Source: Strigamia acuminata
Lineage: Eukaryota; Arthropoda; Chilopoda; Geophilomorpha; Linotaeniidae
Assembly (NCBI GenBank): GCA_949358305.1
Contig: OX442318.1
Span: 3,086,501-3,150,500 of the forward strand
Direction of reading: 5' to 3'
DNA length: 64,000 nucleotides
In this document: positions 19,513 through 31,500 of the stretch, piece after piece
Numbering within the stretch: the first letter of the stretch is position 1
Layout of the letters: every line of letters begins with the position of its first letter
Translations under genes and position numbers: made by a program
Notes under the pieces: model-generated
What the model was told of the DNA's origin: nothing
Seen by the model: only the letters and a program-made list of their open reading frames with translations
The model's database searches: none

Positions 19513-22500
19513 TTAAAAATCATTATACAATGGCATACAACCATAAACTTTATTTGAACCGGTCGCGACCGGTTCGAGTACTCCGTGGGGTGCGCAAATC
19601 CACGGGTCCGACGTATTCAATTGCCACGAATGCAATTGGTGTTTCAAATAGGCAACTTCCTGCGCATGCGCTTTGTCATCGATTACATTTTTCAGCTCCT
19701 TCGGATCGTTTATTAAATCGAAGAGCTCCCACTCCTCCCGGAAGTAGTAATCCCTCAACGTTTTGTACCAATGTGTCGGTTGATCATGTCTGGTGCGATT
19801 CAAAATGTCCCGGAAAGTGGGCGACAAGTAGAAATCCTGATCGATCGGGAACGGGCTGCGATTGGCTAAATTATGGATGAGTTTATACTGCCTCGTTCTC
19901 ACGCTTCTCATTGGATAATACATGGTGACCTCATGCAGACTCTGACTAGCATACACCTCGTCCCAACCGGAAGTCGGCTCGGATTCGGTAATGGGCAAAA
20001 GCGTGCGCCCCGTGAGCGCCATCTTGCCGGAATACGTCACGTTAAACCAATCCAAAATGGTGGGCGCAATGTCCAATAAACTGACCATCGCGTCCGAATT
20101 TTGGTCCCAGCGACCCCTGTGGATGGGCGAGGAAATTAATAACGGTTCGGCCATTCCCGGATCGTACAAATTGGTTCTTCCGCTCGGAAACGGAATTCCG
20201 TTGTCGGAAGTGTAGATTATTAGCGTGTTGTCGTGGAAACCGGCATCTTTTAGCTCGGCTAGAATGAGACCGATACCTTGGTCCATGCGGCCAATCGTTG
20301 TGTATTGCGCGGCGATGTCGTGTCTGGCTGCAGGAGTGTCCGGGATGAAGTAGGGAACAATTACGTCGCTAGGGTTGTAGACGTCGGGCTTCCAGTCGGG
20401 AATGATTCCCATGTCCGGTTGGCCGTTGCCGAATTTCTCGCAGAAGATTCCGTATTTTGGGTTGGAGTGCAGACAGCGGTGGGGGTCGTGGAACGCGACG
20501 TAGAGGAAAAATGGCCGCGGATCATCTTGTTGGAGGAATTTCCGAACTTCGAGTTTGATCCGGGTTATGTTCCGGCCGACTTGGAGCACGGATGTTGTTT
20601 CTTCGGTTTTGGAGAAGTCGAAGGAGTAAACAGAGTCAGGGCCGACATGTTTTTTGCCGATTATTCCTAGAAATAAGAAGGGGAAAATTCCATCAAAAAT
20701 TGGAAAATTTAATTGTAAAATGGATATTAAGGAGATTCACCCTTGGAAACTTATTTTAACGTTTCCAACGGCGAACCTAGGAAAATGCGCCATTGGAAAC
20801 GCTTCTGGACTGCAAAAATGTTAAATGTGTTCTGAGTGTTCGGACGGACGCCACGTGGTCAGGGGAGGCCCACAGGGCGCTGGACGCAACAGACACGATG
20901 AATCAATCCACAAAATACACAAGAAACACAAGTTTAGGTTTTGGTTATTGCTTTATTGTTGTCTAGGGGTATGATGGTGTCGCAAGGTGTATTTTCCAAG
21001 TGTAATGGCTGCCTAGCAGCCATTTCTGATCGGACCATGTGTCACGGCGATCTTGGAATCGCCATGACACACGAGGTCGTTTGAATTCGGCCGCGTCATT
21101 GTAACGTTCTCAAGAACATACGACGAACACGACGTCTCGGACACTGAAGTCCCGGTGGGCGACAGAGTCGCCACGCCGATCGTTCGGGTCGCTCTTGCCA
21201 TTGATCGTGGAGAGACGGTGAGGATGCGACCATTCGTCACGCCAATTCAGAAACAACTCTCTGGGCCACTGCGGGGCCCACCCACTTCTGGAAGGGTCAC
21301 TTCCGGGGCCCGATTGGTCCTGCACCAAAGGGCCGCAGCTCCACCTGGTTGCGGGGTCCGCAACAGGCTGCGCGAGAAACAGAAGGCGTGAGAGCTGCAC
21401 TAAGTTGTGTTGCAGGTGAGTGCCTCAGCTGGTCACAGTGTGACATCATTCGCCATTGGAAACACATTTTTATGTTTCCAAGGGCAAAAATTTTTCACCT
21501 TGGCATTTCCAATAGCAAATTTGGTTTTTATTGTAAAATTCGCCATTGGAAACGTCATTGTGTTTCCAATGGCGACTATGTTTACGTTTGAATTTGCCAT
21601 GAGAAACACAACGGCAAATTTGTTAATGTTTCAAAGGCAAATTTGTTAATGTTTCAAAGGCAAATTTGTTAATGTTTCAAAGGCGAATTTGTTAATGTTT
21701 CAAAGGCTTTTGCACCTTGTTCTGAGGACGATTTCTTAAACATTTAAATCGTGTAGTGTAAGAAAATAAAATAACAATTTATTGGAAAATTCTAATAACA
21801 CTAATCACGCGGCCGCGGCAGAAGGGGCAGTGAGGTCTCCTATCCACACGCTCAACACCTGCCGCAGTGGCCATGTGCACATGTAAAAAAATGGCATTAT
21901 TTCATCCCTTTCACATTCTTTCATCCTTGGAAATGTGTGTTGCCTGCGTGACAATGGTGAATTTCTCCCAATTCGCCATTGGAAATGTTTCTTTCTTCTG
22001 CTGTAAAAATCATTTTAAAAATTTGGGATTGGCTCTATCTCTAATTAGGGCAAAAGTAATGTGGTGAAAAAATTACTAAGCTGAAGTTGGCACCACATTC
22101 ACATTCGCCCAAACTACAGTTAGAACAAATCCCAATTTTTTTTACCACGGATTTCAATGGTTTTTACACGAAAAGATAGAGGACTTTCTCCTAAACAAAC
22201 CGTGAACAGCACAAGTCTCTACTCCTCTTAGTTTTTGAGCAGCAAGCATTTGAATATGGCACAAAAAAGACTTGTACTAAATTTCCAAATCTGGCGCCAC
22301 AACTTCAAACCTCAATATCTCAACAACCTGACCACGGATTTTTTCATTTCAAAAACCAAACGATATAGAGGACCTTCTCCTCTACAAACTCTAAAAGGCA
22401 GAACACTCTACCCCTCTTTTCGAGCGGCAACCGTTTGAATTTGGCGCAACTGAAATTACAAAACCCAAATATTCCAAGTTTTAGCATTTTTGATTTCAGC

Positions 22501-25500
22501 GTTTTTGATTTCAGAGTTTTTGTTTTCCGCATTTTTGTAAGTCAGTGTTGTTGCATTTCAGAGTTTTTGAGATCCGTGCATGCTACACGAAGGATACACG
22601 AAGGATCCACGGAGGCTCCCCCGCAGTCTCCCCCGCGGGCTCCCCCGCGGGCTCCCCCGCGGGCTCCCCAGCGGGCTCCCCAGCGGGCTCCCCAGCGGGC
22701 TCCCCAGCGGGCTCCCCAGCGGGCTCCCCAGCGGGCTCCCCAGCGGGCTCCCCAGCGGGCTCCCCAGCGGGCTCCCCAGCGGGCTCCCCAGCGGGCTCCC
22801 CAGCGGGCTCCCCAGCGGGCTCCCCAGCGGGCTCCCCAGCGGGCTCCCCAGCGGGCTCCCCAGCGGGCTCCCCAGCGGGCTCCCCAGCGGGCTCCCCAGC
22901 GGGCTCCCCAGCGGGCTCCCCAGCGGGCTCCCCAGCGGGCTCCCCAGCGGGCTCCCCAGCGGGCTCCCCAGCGGGCTCCCCAGCGGGCTCCCCAGCGGGC
23001 TCCCCAGCGGGCTCCCCAGCGGGCTCCCCAGCGGGCTCCCCAGCGGGCTCCCCAGCGGGCTCCCCAGCGGGCTCCCCAGCGGGCTCCCCAGCGGGCTCCC
23101 CAGCGGGCTCCCCAGCGGGCTCCCCAGCGGGCTCCCCAGCGGGCTCCCCAGCGGGCTCCCCAGCGGGCTCCCCAGCGGGCTCCCCAGCGGGCTCCCCAGC
23201 GGGCTCCCCAGCGGGCTCCCCAGCGGGCTCCCCAGCGGGCTCCCCAGCGGGCTCCCCAGCGGGCTCCCCAGCGGGCTCCCCAGCGGGCTCCCCAGCGGGC
23301 TCCCCAGCGGGCTCCCCAGCGGGCTCCCCAGCGGGCTCCCCAGCGGGCTCCCCAGCGGGCTCCCCAGCGGGCTCCCCCGCGGGCTCCCCCGCGGGCTCCC
23401 CCGCGGGCTCCTCCGCGGGCTCTCTCGCAGGCTCCTCCGCAGGCTCCCCAGCAAGCACCTCAATGTTTAAGTGTCCACCGCTCGGGGTATAGTATTGTGC
23501 TTTTCATTGTTTGTAGAGAAGGTCCTCTATATCAGCGGTCGGCAACTGGCGGACCGCGGTCCGTTTCCAGACCGCGGAAGGTTGAAACTTGTGTTGGTCC
23601 TTGAAACCACTTCGGACGTTTATTTAACACTTTTTCGATGCGTAATGACGCTACCTGGACTTTTTCACATCATTGGTTATTATATTTATCTTTCCCCAAA
23701 TAATTTAGTGTTTATTTCCTACTTAACTGGTTGTTACCAGTTTATTTCCGTATATTTACTTTATGTTGTAAGGGAAATGCATGGTGCCTGCATTAACTGT
23801 GTCTTAACACACTGGGCATCATGCATCGCCTATCGGTTTATACCTGTGAGTCGCTCGCTTCTGTCACCAGAGCGCACTGCCTTTTATTCCAAGATGGCGA
23901 CGCACACTGCTAAGTGTGCTCCTGTGCATTTCAATCCTGTTTTCGTAAGTTTTAGGTTAATAAATCGTTTATTTTGTTTATAAATAATTTGTTTCTCGTG
24001 TCTGCACGTAGATAAGTGCAGACACCACGCAAATTCGACCAGAACCGGCTCGAATTCGCGTACACGACGCGCCGCACGTCTCGTGCGTGCTATATCGTGC
24101 GTGTTGGCTTATTTTTAAGCGTTTCCACTGCCTAGTCTGTGCTGTTTTTGCAGCATACCACCACAATTGGTAGCAGAGGCCTGGAAAGACACCAGGGCCT
24201 CGTTTTTTCCTTAATTTTCCACAATTTTCGCGATTTTTTCGCGAATTTTGCGGAAATTTTCTATATTTTCAGATTTTTCGCCGATTTACACCGATTTTCG
24301 ACATGCGACGACGTCTACACGACGTTATCACCGAGAAACGGGTGTAACCCGCTGTTTAGCACCCCGGTGTGCGACAGTATCGACGATTTTTGTTCATTTT
24401 TCGCGATTTTTCGTTTAAAATCGCACATATCCGTGTTTTTCACACGAGGATCGCGTGTTGCGACGTGCACCGCGACTGATTCGTCAATTTCGCCTTATTT
24501 TGTCTTTCAGAGTCGAATTACCTTTGTTAATTTTAAGTGGGGATTTTGGTGTGGGACAATTAGAATCCTCGGCGCCCTTCGTCCGAATCCGGGCAAGCGC
24601 CGTTGTATTTTTCGGTTGTGCTTGTCGTGGTACAAGTGAGGTTTCCCGCGGCTCCAGGTAGTCGAACGGACCCTCTCAGACTGGCAACCGAAAGCTATTT
24701 GATTCCTTCAGAAGGAATCGCCCATTCTTGGTTTCCGCTTTGACAGTGCTACGTAAAGTGCTTCGTGATTTGTGCTTCGTTTGTGCGTGAATTGTGCGTC
24801 GATTGTGCTTCAATTTCCCATTTCTACGCATTTTTCCTGCGTACAATCATGAAAAAGGCCACCGATCAGTCGTCAGGCCACGTGCCGATTCTCGTGACCG
24901 GCAATTACGAACACTGGCACCGTGCAATTAAAATGCTATTGATGTCCGACGGCGTATGGCACCACGTCACCGAAACGGAGGAACTAGTGAAAGCCAATGT
25001 CGATGAAGACGTTTGGCGAAAATGGCAACGTCGGAAAGCCCGAGCGCTGGGGACCATTTATTGCCACGTCTCGCAGGCCAAACAGTCGGCCCTCGACGGT
25101 TACACCACTCCGAAACAGGCGTGGGACATTTTGGCCAAAATTTACGCCCCCAGCTCTCTCGCCCGCCAAGCGGCGATGCGCCGTGAGTTCCTGCAGCTCA
25201 AGTTGGAGCCCGGCGAAGAAATGGCCGATTTCCTCAGCCGCGTTGACCTTATGGTCCGCCAACTTAAAGACGTCGGTGAAGACATCCTCCCTCGACATCA
25301 CGCGTACCAGTATTTAGACTTTCTTCCGGACGAATACGACCAGGCGACTTTTGCCATTTATCATTGGCCGCTGGCAGAGTTTACCCCGGCTAAAGTCTCC
25401 GAACAGTTGTTGTCGGAATATCTACGATTAAAGTCGCATTCGAACCGAAACTCCGGTAATTCCTCCGCTTATGCTACTGGGCGACAAGGACGTAACCAGT

Positions 25501-28500
25501 CGCGACCCCCGCGCCCGCTTGCGCAGGTGCGTTGCTTCAATTGCAACGAGCTTGGACACTACGCCAATAAGTGCCAGCATCCTCGCAAGCAAACAACTGG
25601 GCAACAGCCGGTAGCTACGTTTCAGACACGATCTCGCAGCAAGAGTCGACGCCGCAATAAAGGCTCGAATCCGAATGTGAACCCGAATCAACAGCAACAG
25701 GGACAGTTTCGCGAGTCTTCACGCCCGCGCCGAGATGCAGCATATCTCCTGTCCGCACCACCTGCGATCCAGGTTCCTACCGTTCATTTCGTCCAATCTC
25801 ACGAATGGATTGTTGACTGCGGCGCCACCGACCACGTTTCACACGTTAAATCGTGGTTCTTGGACTTTGTTGAGGTCGTCCCTTTTAATATCGAATTGGG
25901 ACAAGGAAGCTCCAAAGTTACCGGAAAAGGGAATGTTCCAGTCAAGTCACTCATCGATGGCTGTGAATGCACCGTACTTCTCCGCGATGTTTTGTACGCA
26001 CCTGATTTCGGCGCTAATTTAATTTCGGTTTCGCGAGTCGATAAATGTGGGCATCACATACACATTTACAATTCGGAGTTGCATACATATGGGACGGATA
26101 TCAAACAAAGTGTTCTTCGGGCGAAGCAAAAGTCAGGACTTTACTTCGTAGATGGACTAATTTCGCCATTTGCGTCGCCGACTGTTGTTTCGAGTACACC
26201 GCCCATCCCAATGTCACCTCCGACTACTGCGCCGATGACTCTCATCACGAAGGAGGAAGATTTTCCCGCGATGCCCTCAAAGAAGTCGAAGAAAATATCA
26301 AACGTTGAAATGACCGACTTCCGCTTACCTATCTCTCCCAACACCCTACTCGTGCCTTCTCCTTCCCCGATCATCCCCAATCCTGTTGCCGGATCTAAAC
26401 CACAACAGATCCGGATGTATTCCAACGTCCTATCATCTCCTCCTCCTCCCGTTGCCACGACTAAGGCAGTCCCACCTCCTACAAAGGTCGTAACGCCGGC
26501 TGCGAACGTTGCGGATGCCACGGGATTATGGCACGCCAGGTTGGGCCATCTCCACACCAAAGCCATGCGGACTTTGGCGAACAATTCCCAAGTTTATGGA
26601 CTCGATCCGGCTGCAGTTCGGCAAGAACTTTCCTGCAATTCATGTCGCATTGCCAAGTCTACGCGCGCCTCGCACAAGCCGATTTCCGCGCCTTCGACGA
26701 CCAAGCCGTTGGAGTTGTTACATATGGACGTTTGGGGCCCGTCAAGGCTGACTTCAATTGGCGGCGCTGACTACGCCTTTTCCATCGTTGACGATGCGAC
26801 CCGATATTCGTGGATTTTTCCGATTGCACGCAAATCCGACGTTTTTGCGACTTTCAAAGACTTTGTTTCTCGCGTTGAACGCATTACGGATTCCCGCGTC
26901 AAATCAATTCGCACGGATCGCGGCGGGGAATTTATTTCTAAGACTTTTGACCGTTACCTCGCTGACAAGGGCATTGTCGCACAACGGACCAATCCCGGAA
27001 GCCCACAAATGAACGGGGTCGCCGAACGCCTAAACCGGACGATGGGCGACTATCTTCGCTCCGTTACCTCCGAAACCGGTCTTCCGCACACGCTTTGGGC
27101 TGAACTCGCTGTGACATTTTCGTACGTTAAAAATCGCAGCCCGCATTCGAAGCTTACCGACGAAGTTCCATATGTGTTGTGGCGCCAGCGTGCCCTCTCC
27201 GTCAAACATTTCCGAAAAATTGGTTCTAAATGCTGGGTGCATTTCACCGCACCCGGGCGCAACAAAATGGATCCACGGGCGTGGGAAGGATTTCTCGTCG
27301 GTTACGCCTCCAACACTCGCGGTTATCGAGTTTGGAATCCGGCTACGAACACCGTCACGGAATCCGTTCACGTTCAAATCGATGAACGCCAGAATTTCAA
27401 ACGCTCGCCATTTTACGTTCCGGATCCCTACGAAAATGCTCCATTCATGGAGGAGCCTTCTGGCGTCACTACACCGTCCCGTGTCACTTTTGACGATGGT
27501 GCTTTTCCGTCCGTTCCCTGGTCACGTCGACGTCGTGATTCCGACGATGAATCGTCTAATGACGATGATGAATTCCGCCATCGGGCTCCGTCAAGCGCTT
27601 CATCGGTCGCTTCATATCGCTCCGTCCTCGAGGAGGTCGAAGAGGACATTGCTGATGAACTACCTCCTCCTATTCTGTTTGCGGACGATGTACCGGAGGA
27701 CATCGGTTTGGACGTCACGCCTGACCCACCACTTCCGCTTTACCGTCCTCGGAGGAGATTACGTCCCGATGCTTTGGCTCGTCGACCTCACACCCCTGAG
27801 GCCAGCGATAGTGAACTCGACATTGACCACGATATCGAACAATTTTTCGAACGCTATCCCGAGCGTGATTCCGAGCACGACCCCGAAGATGATCCACTTG
27901 ATAATCTCCTCGATGATCTCCTCGATAAGGCGGCCGCCTTACCAGCGGCCGCTGCAACGCCTGCAATGCCCCTCGCTCCGTTACGCGCTCATCACTGCCC
28001 CTATCGTTTTATTGGTGGAGATACGCCCTTCAGCGGATGGAGGAGGGAAGAGCATCTCCGGAAAGAACAGGCGCCTGGCAAAATCAAGGTCGACGTTTAT
28101 TACTATCCGGAGCACGGTGTCCGCTTAAGGTCGAGAGGGGACATCGAAAGATATTGCGTTGCTCACCAACTTCCGTATGAAGAGGACATTTTCTTTTTCG
28201 GCAACCTCGAACATCAATTGCAGGACGAGCAACCTGTTCATCGCGTTCTTATGTGTTTTCGAGAGCCGTCCACGTACGCCGAAGCAGTCAAGCTACCCGA
28301 GGCGCCGAAGTGGACCGAGGCAATCGATGAGGAGCTCACGACTTTCAAGGAACGCGAAGTTTATAAGGAAGTTCCACGACCCCCGGACAAGACAATTCTC
28401 GGGTGCAAGTGGATCTTCCGTTTGAAATCAGATGCCACCGGGAAAATTCACCGCTACCGTGCCCGACTTGTTGCGCAGGGTTTCCGCCAAACAATGGGCG

Positions 28501-31500
28501 TTGATTTCGATGAAGTTTTTAGTCCGGTGGTTAACTTCGTGCTCATCCGATTCTTTTTCTGCCTCCTAGTCGTTTTACTAGGATGGAGGGATCTCCACCT
28601 CGACGTCAAGTGTGCTTACCTTTACGGCGACCTCGACCACGAAATTTACATGCGGATTCCCGCCGGCGCCACATGCACCTCGCCCGACAATGTCTGGTTG
28701 TTAACCAAGTCACTTTACGGTCTTCACCAGTCGGGGCGCATGTGGTACCAGAAGCTCAACGAGACGTTAACCGACCTCGGATTCCAAAAATTTCCCGCTT
28801 GTAATGGCGTTTACGCATTTGGACATTCGGCTGTTATGTTAGTCTACGTGGACGATATCGTCGTATTTTACGCGTCGGAGAGTATCCGAGACCGTATTTT
28901 GGCCCTGATTTCCAGCAAATTCGACATCGTCAACCTCGGCCCAATAACCAAATTACTCGGGGTAGAATTCGTGCGTCGCGATGGGAAAGTTTTCATGTCC
29001 CAACGCTCCTACATCGACAAACTTCTTAAAAAGTTCAACGTTTCGTCAGATGCACTCATTAAAGTGCCTGTCACACCGGGGACCACGCTCGTCAAAGGCT
29101 CGTTGGATAATCTCCCGGACTTTCCGTACCGATCGCTCATCGGATCGTTATTATTCCTCGCTTCTCGCACTCGTCCCGACATATTATATTCGGTCATCGC
29201 TTTATCGCAGTATAATAACTGCTACGACCACCGCCACATCAAGTGTTTGCTCCAAGTTCTCAAATACGTGGCGAACACGAGCGATTTCTCGATCAAACTC
29301 TCGGGGTGTAATTCCAGTCAGCTGTGGGGATACACAGATGCGTCGTGGGCGAGCGACATTGCGACATCGAGAAGTTTCGGAGGATACATCGTTTATATCG
29401 GTTGTGTGCCAATCGGCTGGAGCTGCAAAAAGCAGACCAGCGTCGCCTGTTCCACCATGGAAGCCGAGTTTGTAGCACTAGTCGAAATCGTTAAAGAGTT
29501 ATACTGGTTGGACAGTATCTATCGAGTCTTTCCACCGTTAAACCGATTATCGAAACCGATTATTTTCTCCGATGCCCTCGCCTCGATCCAATTCACGAAC
29601 AACGACATCGAGAACTCGAAAACCAAACATATTCGAGTGAAGTTCCATTGGCTTCGAGAATGGCATATTGCCGGATGCTTCGAACTCCGCAAAATTCCGG
29701 GTGAAATAAATGTTTCAGATATTTTCACGAAATGGCTTAGTTCCGAACGCCTCCGAAATTTGTTGTCCCGGATCTTTATCTCGAAATAATTTCATCGAAC
29801 TGTTAATATCGACATTGCGCATCGAAGGAGGGAATTGTTGGTCCTTGAAACCACTTCGGACGTTTATTTAACACTTTTTCGATGCGTAATGACGCTACCT
29901 GGACTTTTTCACATCATTGGTTATTATATTTATCTTTCCCCAAATAATTTAGTGTTTATTTCCTACTTAACTGGTTGTTACCAGTTTATTTCCGTATATT
30001 TACTTTATGTTGTAAGGGAAATGCATGGTGCCTGCATTAACTGTGTCTTAACACACTGGGCATCATGCATCGCCTATCGGTTTATACCTGTGAGTCGCTC
30101 GCTTCTGTCACCAGAGCGCACTGCCTTTTATTCCAAGATGGCGACGCACACTGCTAAGTGTGCTCCTGTGCATTTCAATCCTGTTTTCGTAAGTTTTAGG
30201 TTAATAAATCGTTTATTTTGTTTATAAATAATTTGTTTCTCGTGTCTGCACGTAGATAAGTGCAGACACCACGCAAATTCGACCAGAACCGGCTCGAATT
30301 CGCGTACACGACGCGCCGCACGTCTCGTGCGTGCTATATCGTGCGTGTTGGCTTATTTTTAAGCGTTTCCACTGCCTAGTCTGTGCTGTTTTTGCAGCAT
30401 ACCACCACAACTTGGACCGCGGTGACATTTTAGCAACGTGTCGTCTTAGCGATGTTTTCCCTTCGGTTTCTTTGGTTTTTCAGTACCGGTAGCTGCATTC
30501 AAAAATTAAAATAACAATTTTAGTTTAGGTGTATTTTAAGTTTTAACATAGGGTTAAACAGGAAATGATGTCATTTTTGGTTTAAAATAAAATAAAACCA
30601 AAAATGACATCATTTCCTGTTTAACTACATGTTAAAACTTAAAATACACCTAAACTAAAATTGTTATTTTAATTTTTGAATGCAGCTAGTGTTTTTTTCT
30701 TGTTTTTCCTGTTTTCTTCCTGCTGGGGAGCCTTCGGGGATCCTTCATGTAGCATGCACGGAAATCAAAAACTCTGAAATGCATCAATGCTGAAAACATA
30801 AAACGCTGAATTACAAAAATGCGGAAAACAAAAACCCTGAAATCAAAAATGCTGAAATCAAAAATGCTAAAAACTTGGAATATTTGGGTTTTGTAAATTC
30901 AGTTGCGCCAAATTCAAACGGTTGCCGCTAGAAAACCAAGAGGGGTAGAGTGTTCTGCCTTTTATGGTTTGTAGAGGAGAAGGTCCTCTATTATCATTTG
31001 GTTTTTTAAATAAAAAAGGAATCATGTTGTTGAGATATTGGGGTTTTAAGTTGTGTCACCAGATTGGGAAATTTAGTACAAGTCTTTTTTGTGCCATATT
31101 CAAATGCTAACTGCTCGAAAACTAAGAGGAGTAGAGACTTGTGCTGTTCACGGTTTGTTTAGAAGAAAGTCCTCTATCTTTTCGTGTAAAAACCATTGAA
31201 ATCCGTGGTAAAAAAAAATTGGGATTTGTTCTATCTGTAGTTTGGGCGAATAATGTGGTTATCGTGGTGCCAACTTTAGCCTGCTGAAAAAATTGAAAAT
31301 TTACTGAAAAAACTAAAAAAAATTCATGAAGAAACAAAAATTATAATATAAAAAATTATAAATTCTTGGAAAGATTTTGCAAATTTCGTGAGAAAAAAAA
31401 TGACAAAAATGTCAAAAATCTTAAATATTAAAAAAAAAATCTATTCGATCAGTTCAATTTCCCCCAAAACCTGGTCAAAAAATGTTCTAAACCTGTTCTA

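Follow-up and report, generated by a model that had tools for sequence, protein, structure and literature searches.

Why does a Copia retrotransposon of the centipede Strigamia acuminata appear to carry a methyl-CpG-binding domain (MBD) between its integrase and its reverse transcriptase (RT)? The element lies in the window analysed here, a 64,000-nucleotide stretch of contig OX442318.1 (assembly GCA_949358305.1, positions 3,086,501 to 3,150,500), and a first-pass annotation of this DNA had proposed both the domain and a role for it in steering integration. The best explanation, which we hold with moderate confidence, is that the element belongs to a Copia clade with an MBD between integrase and RT, and that through this MBD the integration complex is probably tethered to repeats dense in CpG.

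The segment in question, SGWRREEHLRK...VDVYYYPEHGVRLRSRGDIERY...FFFG, forms residues 1090–1146 of the polyprotein (positions 28032–28202; this and all stranded features below lie on the forward strand), between integrase and RT. The Pfam MBD model PF01429 (cut-off 21 bits) matched residues 1091–1138, with an E-value of 2.9e-5 and 24.0 bits when the whole open reading frame (ORF) was searched and of 1.3e-6 and 28.4 bits when a 150-residue piece was used, and it scored 23.3–46.9 bits in seven of seven other loci of the genome. A phmmer search of PDB sequences placed MBD2 at the top (E 0.0014), the first 13 of 21 rows being MBD proteins, while a profile of 25 relatives (alignment A1) matched MBD2 with an E-value of 1.8e-14, and 32 distinct MBD/TAM sequences fell at E ≤0.013. 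The AlphaFold model built with relatives had a predicted local distance difference test score (pLDDT) of 79, and ranks 1–37 of its Foldseek search were all MBD/TAM chains; the single-sequence model (pLDDT 45) was too poor for use. When the model was searched against BFVD, all matches lay above E 0.001; the top row, which is not significant (E 0.056), is a protein of a Bathycoccus virus, an algal virus, that is named MBD domain-containing. By sequence profile and predicted fold, the domain between integrase and RT is thus a real MBD, and on both counts the first-pass annotation was borne out.

For the contacts with CpG we take the residues of MBD1 to be Arg22 and Arg44, the arginine fingers, together with Asp32, Tyr34 and Ser45. 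All five have aligned counterparts in the window copy, namely R1099 (28059–28061), D1110 (28092–28094), Y1112 (28098–28100) and R1122–S1123 (28128–28133). The first-pass annotation had correctly recognized the last four and left R1099 unnamed; the residues it quoted are present, and its numbering of 1058–1118, which fits a later start, is replaced here by a count from the GTG at 24765. Across the 25 rows of A1 the counterparts of Arg22, Asp32, Arg44 and Ser45 were kept in 25, 25, 24 and 25 sequences, respectively. In a second alignment (A3) of the window copy with nine outside pieces, two of these short, Arg22 was kept in 10 of the 10 rows, Asp32 in 9, Arg44 in 8, Ser45 in 9 and Tyr34 in 10. 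Judged from these alignments, both predicted arginine fingers persist across the family. The Tyr34 counterpart is present in 16 of the 25 rows of A1 and replaced by V in five, I in two and W in two. It is lost in a lineage whose domain starts DMTKW, DMTQW or DMTLW and kept in the lineage of the window copy; loci L041, L043, L047 and their kin form an MBD-Copia lineage with V, I or W at this position. In MBD3, loss of this tyrosine goes with weaker methyl-selectivity, and by analogy its loss here may weaken methyl-selectivity as well. Given the role presumed for the residue, its retention favours a methyl-CpG reading in the window's own lineage.

The domain recurs many times in the 237.5-Mb genome searched. 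A 106-residue piece used as query gave 1270 first-look candidates; each of the 150 that were scored proved to be a match, with identities of 57–100% and 149 free of stops in the match; with the Pfam MBD model as query, 150 of 1092 were scored and all exceeded the cut-off. The latter include one locus outside Copia, L059, which enters none of the Copia counts except this raw 150; it is a host exon (C3:20.31 Mb) with an MBD-like stretch read as a BAZ2-type TAM domain. Seventy loci were taken, 30 as close copies from the 106-residue search and 40 picked as diverse, and the domain was re-found in 69 of them, the exception being L059. These 69 and the window copy hold 34 distinct domain sequences, 25 of which entered A1.

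Conservation was compared over 18 pairs of copies or subfamilies, which share copies and are not independent. The 58-residue MBD core showed zero gap columns in 13 of the 18 pairs and three at most, against up to 67 in the preceding 140 residues. The ratio of non-synonymous to synonymous substitution rates (dN/dS) was lower in the MBD than in the linker in all 11 computable pairs, narrowly in two, dS being saturated in one or both regions for the other seven. Between L001 and L034, for example, it was 0.065 in the MBD and 0.284 in the linker, with 48/58 and 41/116 identical residues. The RT is under tighter constraint, the MBD value exceeding that of the RT in six of eight computable pairs. 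Since the core stays while the linker varies, the related copies do not show the free variation that the first-pass annotation had named as grounds for abandoning the domain. The copies also include a cluster at C6:15.34–15.62 Mb in which the spacing of several pairs of MBD-Copias is exactly 5,088 bp, probably because the array that holds them was duplicated.

MBD-Copias are found beyond this genome as well. Queried with A1, a set of 5.8 billion proteins yielded three matches; a search with the MBD region of subfamily L041 gave 25 candidates and zero matches. A 960-residue piece of the window ORF gave 106 matches among 7993 candidates scored in that set of 5.8 billion; the two with the highest scores, 762 and 639 bits, belong to MBD-Copias, and the one that follows, at 423 bits, does not. 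By profile, nine of 109 database proteins carry the MBD (P0001–P0005, P0067, P0076, P0077 and P0084), of which P0001, P0067 and P0077 are from Strigamia maritima. P0001, used in turn as genome query, retrieved further subfamilies (150 of 1058 candidates scored). Its identity was 64–66% in the full-length rows that matched best and reached 71% in a single partial one, values that make S. maritima itself an unlikely source of the genome. One other database entry, the JGI-sourced Copia-type protein P0072, carries a chromodomain (PF00385) according to its precomputed Pfam matches.

An RT tree of 89 rows was built by a quick method without bootstrap from all 70 database proteins in which enough of the RT is present, together with 19 host loci out of the 30 that this cut retrieved; it leaves out 11 host loci (mostly near-copies), L003–L030, the host Copias without MBD, P0067, P0076, P0077 and P0084 (too little RT) and three short MBD proteins. 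The 21 MBD rows fell on one side of a single branch of length 1.03 (Shimodaira–Hasegawa-like approximate likelihood ratio test 99, one change), and this single clade fits one capture of the MBD followed by long retention. Host Copias of another clade, for which 150 of 2633 candidates were scored, had RVT_2 scores of 233–275 bits, compared with 172–195 bits in six MBD-Copias with full RT. The MBD was absent from 10 of 10 of these Copias sampled, which have an acidic linker only at that place, the first-pass annotation having rightly described a variable linker as the ordinary Copia state; the remaining 140 of the 150 loci were classed as non-MBD by score.

The insertion sites of the window's family differ from those of the non-MBD Copias, a difference that is a correlation only. 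Places within 200 kb of one another were merged before positions were counted, because the 5.1-kb-spaced C6 cluster looks duplicated. On ten large contigs, 48 of 148 MBD-Copia places lay at most 2 Mb from a contig end, compared with 11 of 114 non-MBD places (Fisher 1e-5), and 43 of 178 compared with 6 of 120 lay on contig C13 or on small contigs; further contig-position counts were 28 of 90 for places found with the P0001 query and 9 of 105 for another abundant repeat. The CpG observed/expected ratio (CpG o/e) of dense and sparse compartments showed no difference (p 0.85).

At finer scale, 40 of 116 candidates from a search with the long terminal repeat (LTR) were scored, and 16 elements with two LTRs about 6.2 kb apart were used together with the window element, 17 in all; this set represents one subfamily and omits two odd-spaced pairs and two single LTRs. 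A perfect 5-bp duplication flanks 16 of the 17 and is different in each, so that the elements represent separate insertions. Their 450-bp flanks had a GC content of 0.596 upstream and 0.518 downstream, with 108 and 89 CpG per kb, and upstream GC exceeded 0.5 in 13 of 17. The corresponding values were 0.338 and 26 for non-MBD Copias (n = 16) and 0.385 and 42 for random samples (n = 20), the non-MBD region being taken 3.85–4.3 kb upstream of the RT rather than as the directly adjacent flank; these regions lack mutual similarity and therefore lie outside the element. The upstream flanks of the MBD-Copias differed from the non-MBD regions (p 1.8e-5 for GC, 3e-5 for CpG per kb) and from the random samples (p 8e-5 and 2e-4). 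In CpG o/e the flanks showed no significant difference (p 0.09 and 0.66); what the elements prefer is thus DNA that is GC-rich and dense in CpG, and not CpG-depleted DNA.

For ten of the 17 insertions the site is a tandem array, its immediate neighbourhood or a high-copy element. Six involve tandem arrays, three of a 53-bp repeat (on three contigs), two of a 12-bp repeat (the window and contig C135) and one of a 9-bp repeat; two are inside other Copias, interrupting integrase in one case and gag in the other, and of the sequences compared MBD-Copias are the closest to both; and two are in a high-copy repeat with 559 candidates. By reading, four more were assigned to other long open frames and three to none of these classes. 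The steering of integration suggested by the first-pass annotation thus has support of a correlative kind, in that the sites are CpG-dense, unlike those of the non-MBD Copias.

A search of the genome for PF00145 gave 12 matches. They include four DNMT1-like genes (L071–L074, at C1:30.37 Mb, C3:32.74 Mb, C1:11.84 Mb and C3:35.92 Mb), one of which was compared with PDB and matched DNMT1 at E 2e-62, one DNMT3-like gene that has an ADD domain and matches DNMT3A at E 5e-19, and L076, read as a DNMT2-like gene. For Strigamia maritima, four Dnmt1 genes, one Dnmt3 gene and a trimodal CpG o/e are reported (PMC4244043). Over twenty 1.2-kb samples of the present genome, CpG o/e ranged from 0.30 to 1.56 and fell as TpG/CpA rose (Spearman −0.92), compared with 0.02 for the control GpT/ApC in the same samples. 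The inverse relation is taken as the footprint of patchy germline CpG methylation. The window has a CpG o/e of 1.41, and a host without methylation, considered on that value, was dropped in view of the samples from elsewhere. With the DNMT1- and DNMT3-like genes and the substitution of TpG for CpG, an involvement of methylation is plausible. A match to SL1 RNA in the genome, which would have pointed to a nematode, was rejected as repeat-like, its 37.5 bits falling well short of the gathering score, 75.

The alternative that survives best is a special case of the tethering account, in which the domain would be specific to methylated CpG and host-silenced repeats would serve as safe havens. The five contact residues kept in the window copy, the host methyltransferase genes and the TpG footprint argue for it, and the targets and elements, which are not CpG-depleted, argue against it, as does the loss of the Tyr34 counterpart in one lineage. 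CpG transitions were not clearly raised in the element copies (23/625 versus 32/1051 in the 25 of 30 copies compared), and with target flanks that are CpG-dense rather than depleted, the claim of the first-pass annotation that the element reads methylated rather than plain CpG finds no support in the form given. We regard this special case as tentative, somewhat below an even chance.

Differential survival is the main rival: selection would have purged other insertions, and repeats would have multiplied the copies they contain, leaving a CpG-dense, repeat-rich distribution. The apparent duplication of the 5.1-kb-spaced C6 cluster agrees with this. Against it speak the non-MBD Copias of the same genome, which have long open frames and are presumably purged in the same way, and yet lie in AT-rich DNA; the separate insertions recorded by the differing duplications argue in the same direction, and we consider survival unlikely as the explanation. 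Less probable again is a protein–protein or structural module, serving host chromatin recruitment or polyprotein folding without contact to CpG. The MBD model does match other MBD-fold domains as well (BAZ2 TAM and SETDB2), and Tyr34 varies in one lineage, but the near-invariant counterparts of Arg22, Asp32, Arg44 and Ser45 would be superfluous in a DNA-free module. A merely accidental likeness, or a pseudo-domain confined to a single copy, to which the moderate single-sequence E-values and the poor single-sequence model might point, has a negligible probability in the face of the relatives' profile, the good model obtained with relatives and a clade conserved in more than one organism.

Under the tethering account, the MBD would stay on the C-terminus of integrase after polyprotein cleavage and bind target DNA there, this binding would cause the bias in insertion sites, and satellites and other repeated elements would receive the new copies. 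The MBD is placed after the integrase domains, where Ty1 carries its targeting domain. A guide at the integrase end that binds CpG-dense repeats is the most economical account.

The window element itself has the features of a Ty1/Copia retrotransposon, with gag, integrase and RT in that order, RVT_2, LTRs and a 5-bp duplication. Its two 574-bp LTRs (23592–24165 and 29836–30409; the first starts TG and ends CA) are identical and are flanked by the target site duplication ACTTG (23587–23591 and 30410–30414), and its ORF (24765–29789) runs for 1674 residues without interruption, in agreement with the intact and recent copy described in the first-pass annotation. A putative primer-binding site (TTGGTAGCAGAGGC...), assigned by eye, follows the 5' LTR (24166–24183). 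According to Pfam, the single Gag-Pol ORF holds, in Copia order, a Copia-type gag, the integrase core rve (residues 646–747, 26700–27005, E 6e-11), a retroviral polymerase SH3-like domain (residues 809–878, 27189–27398, E 1.2e-23) and RVT_2 (residues 1198–1436, 28356–29072, E 6.8e-57, with YVDD at 28845). Between the SH3-like domain and the MBD lies an acidic variable linker (27399–28031), the final 140 residues of which differ in sequence and length between subfamilies. Pfam matches of the ORF up to E 10 include no chromodomain, and the domain order is that of Copia, not Gypsy.

The insertion lies next to a CpG-rich 12-bp minisatellite (22600–23452, left limit approximate), which stops about 139 bp to its left; over 22482–23470 five of the reading frames listed for the minisatellite contain long open stretches. 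Long inverted-repeat arms (22131–22608 and 30727–31222, 94% complementary over 201 nt with further pieces adjoining) bracket both minisatellite and Copia, which gives the target the look of an element of the foldback type. Immediately to the right of the 3' LTR, at 30490–30688, is a 94-nt near-perfect inverted repeat (97%, 11-nt loop).

The domain shares its predicted fold, core motif and CpG-contact residues with cellular MBD1, MBD2, MBD3, MBD4 and MeCP2. It differs in sitting in the polyprotein of a mobile element and, in the window's lineage, in having the loop ahead of the VDVYY strand longer by one residue. Among Copia-type elements, Ty5 has its targeting domain at the C-terminus of integrase. 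The Ty1 integrase C-terminus holds a targeting determinant that binds AC40, and in Ty5 a targeting domain of integrase, which binds Sir4, guides the element to heterochromatin (PMC9673352); both thus likewise carry targeting on integrase, through short stretches that bind host proteins, whereas the MBD-Copias have a predicted folded DNA-reader domain. Chromodomains of Gypsy elements are reported to target integration into heterochromatin (PMC2864245). These chromoviruses are likewise an LTR retrotransposon clade with an added reader of a chromatin mark, but they are Ty3/Gypsy elements with a histone reader, while the MBD-Copias hold an MBD-fold DNA reader between integrase and RT in one polyprotein. 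Dinoflagellate and charophyte retrotransposons carry DNMT, which the Copia elements of Symbiodinium are reported to lack (PMC5890265). Those DNMT-bearing elements likewise took up part of the cytosine-methylation machinery, as a writer rather than a reader, and the term MBD was not found in the available part of that account. Fifteen unusual domains of plant LTR elements are, in the text available, all from Gypsy and none from Copia (PMC9289625).

Retrotransposons that read histone marks through chromodomains or write DNA methylation through captured DNMT were known before. None with a CpG (methylation) reader domain is described in the titles and listed abstracts of the literature searched, a scope outside which most subscription journals fall. 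The fullest version of events, to which we give close to an even chance, though below it, is that Copias took up a methylation reader a single time, retained it in more than one host lineage while diverging deeply, and now rely on it, at the end of integrase, for guidance to methylated CpG-dense repeats, a safe-haven address. MBD and non-MBD Copias with intact frames and visibly different insertion sites form a natural experiment in one genome with DNMT1- and DNMT3-like genes, and allow it to be tested directly whether transposons of an animal can be guided in their integration by DNA methylation, or by the density of CpG. If the account is true, the silencing mark of the host would be the landing map of the element, and these Copias would be the DNA-methylation counterpart of the chromoviruses.
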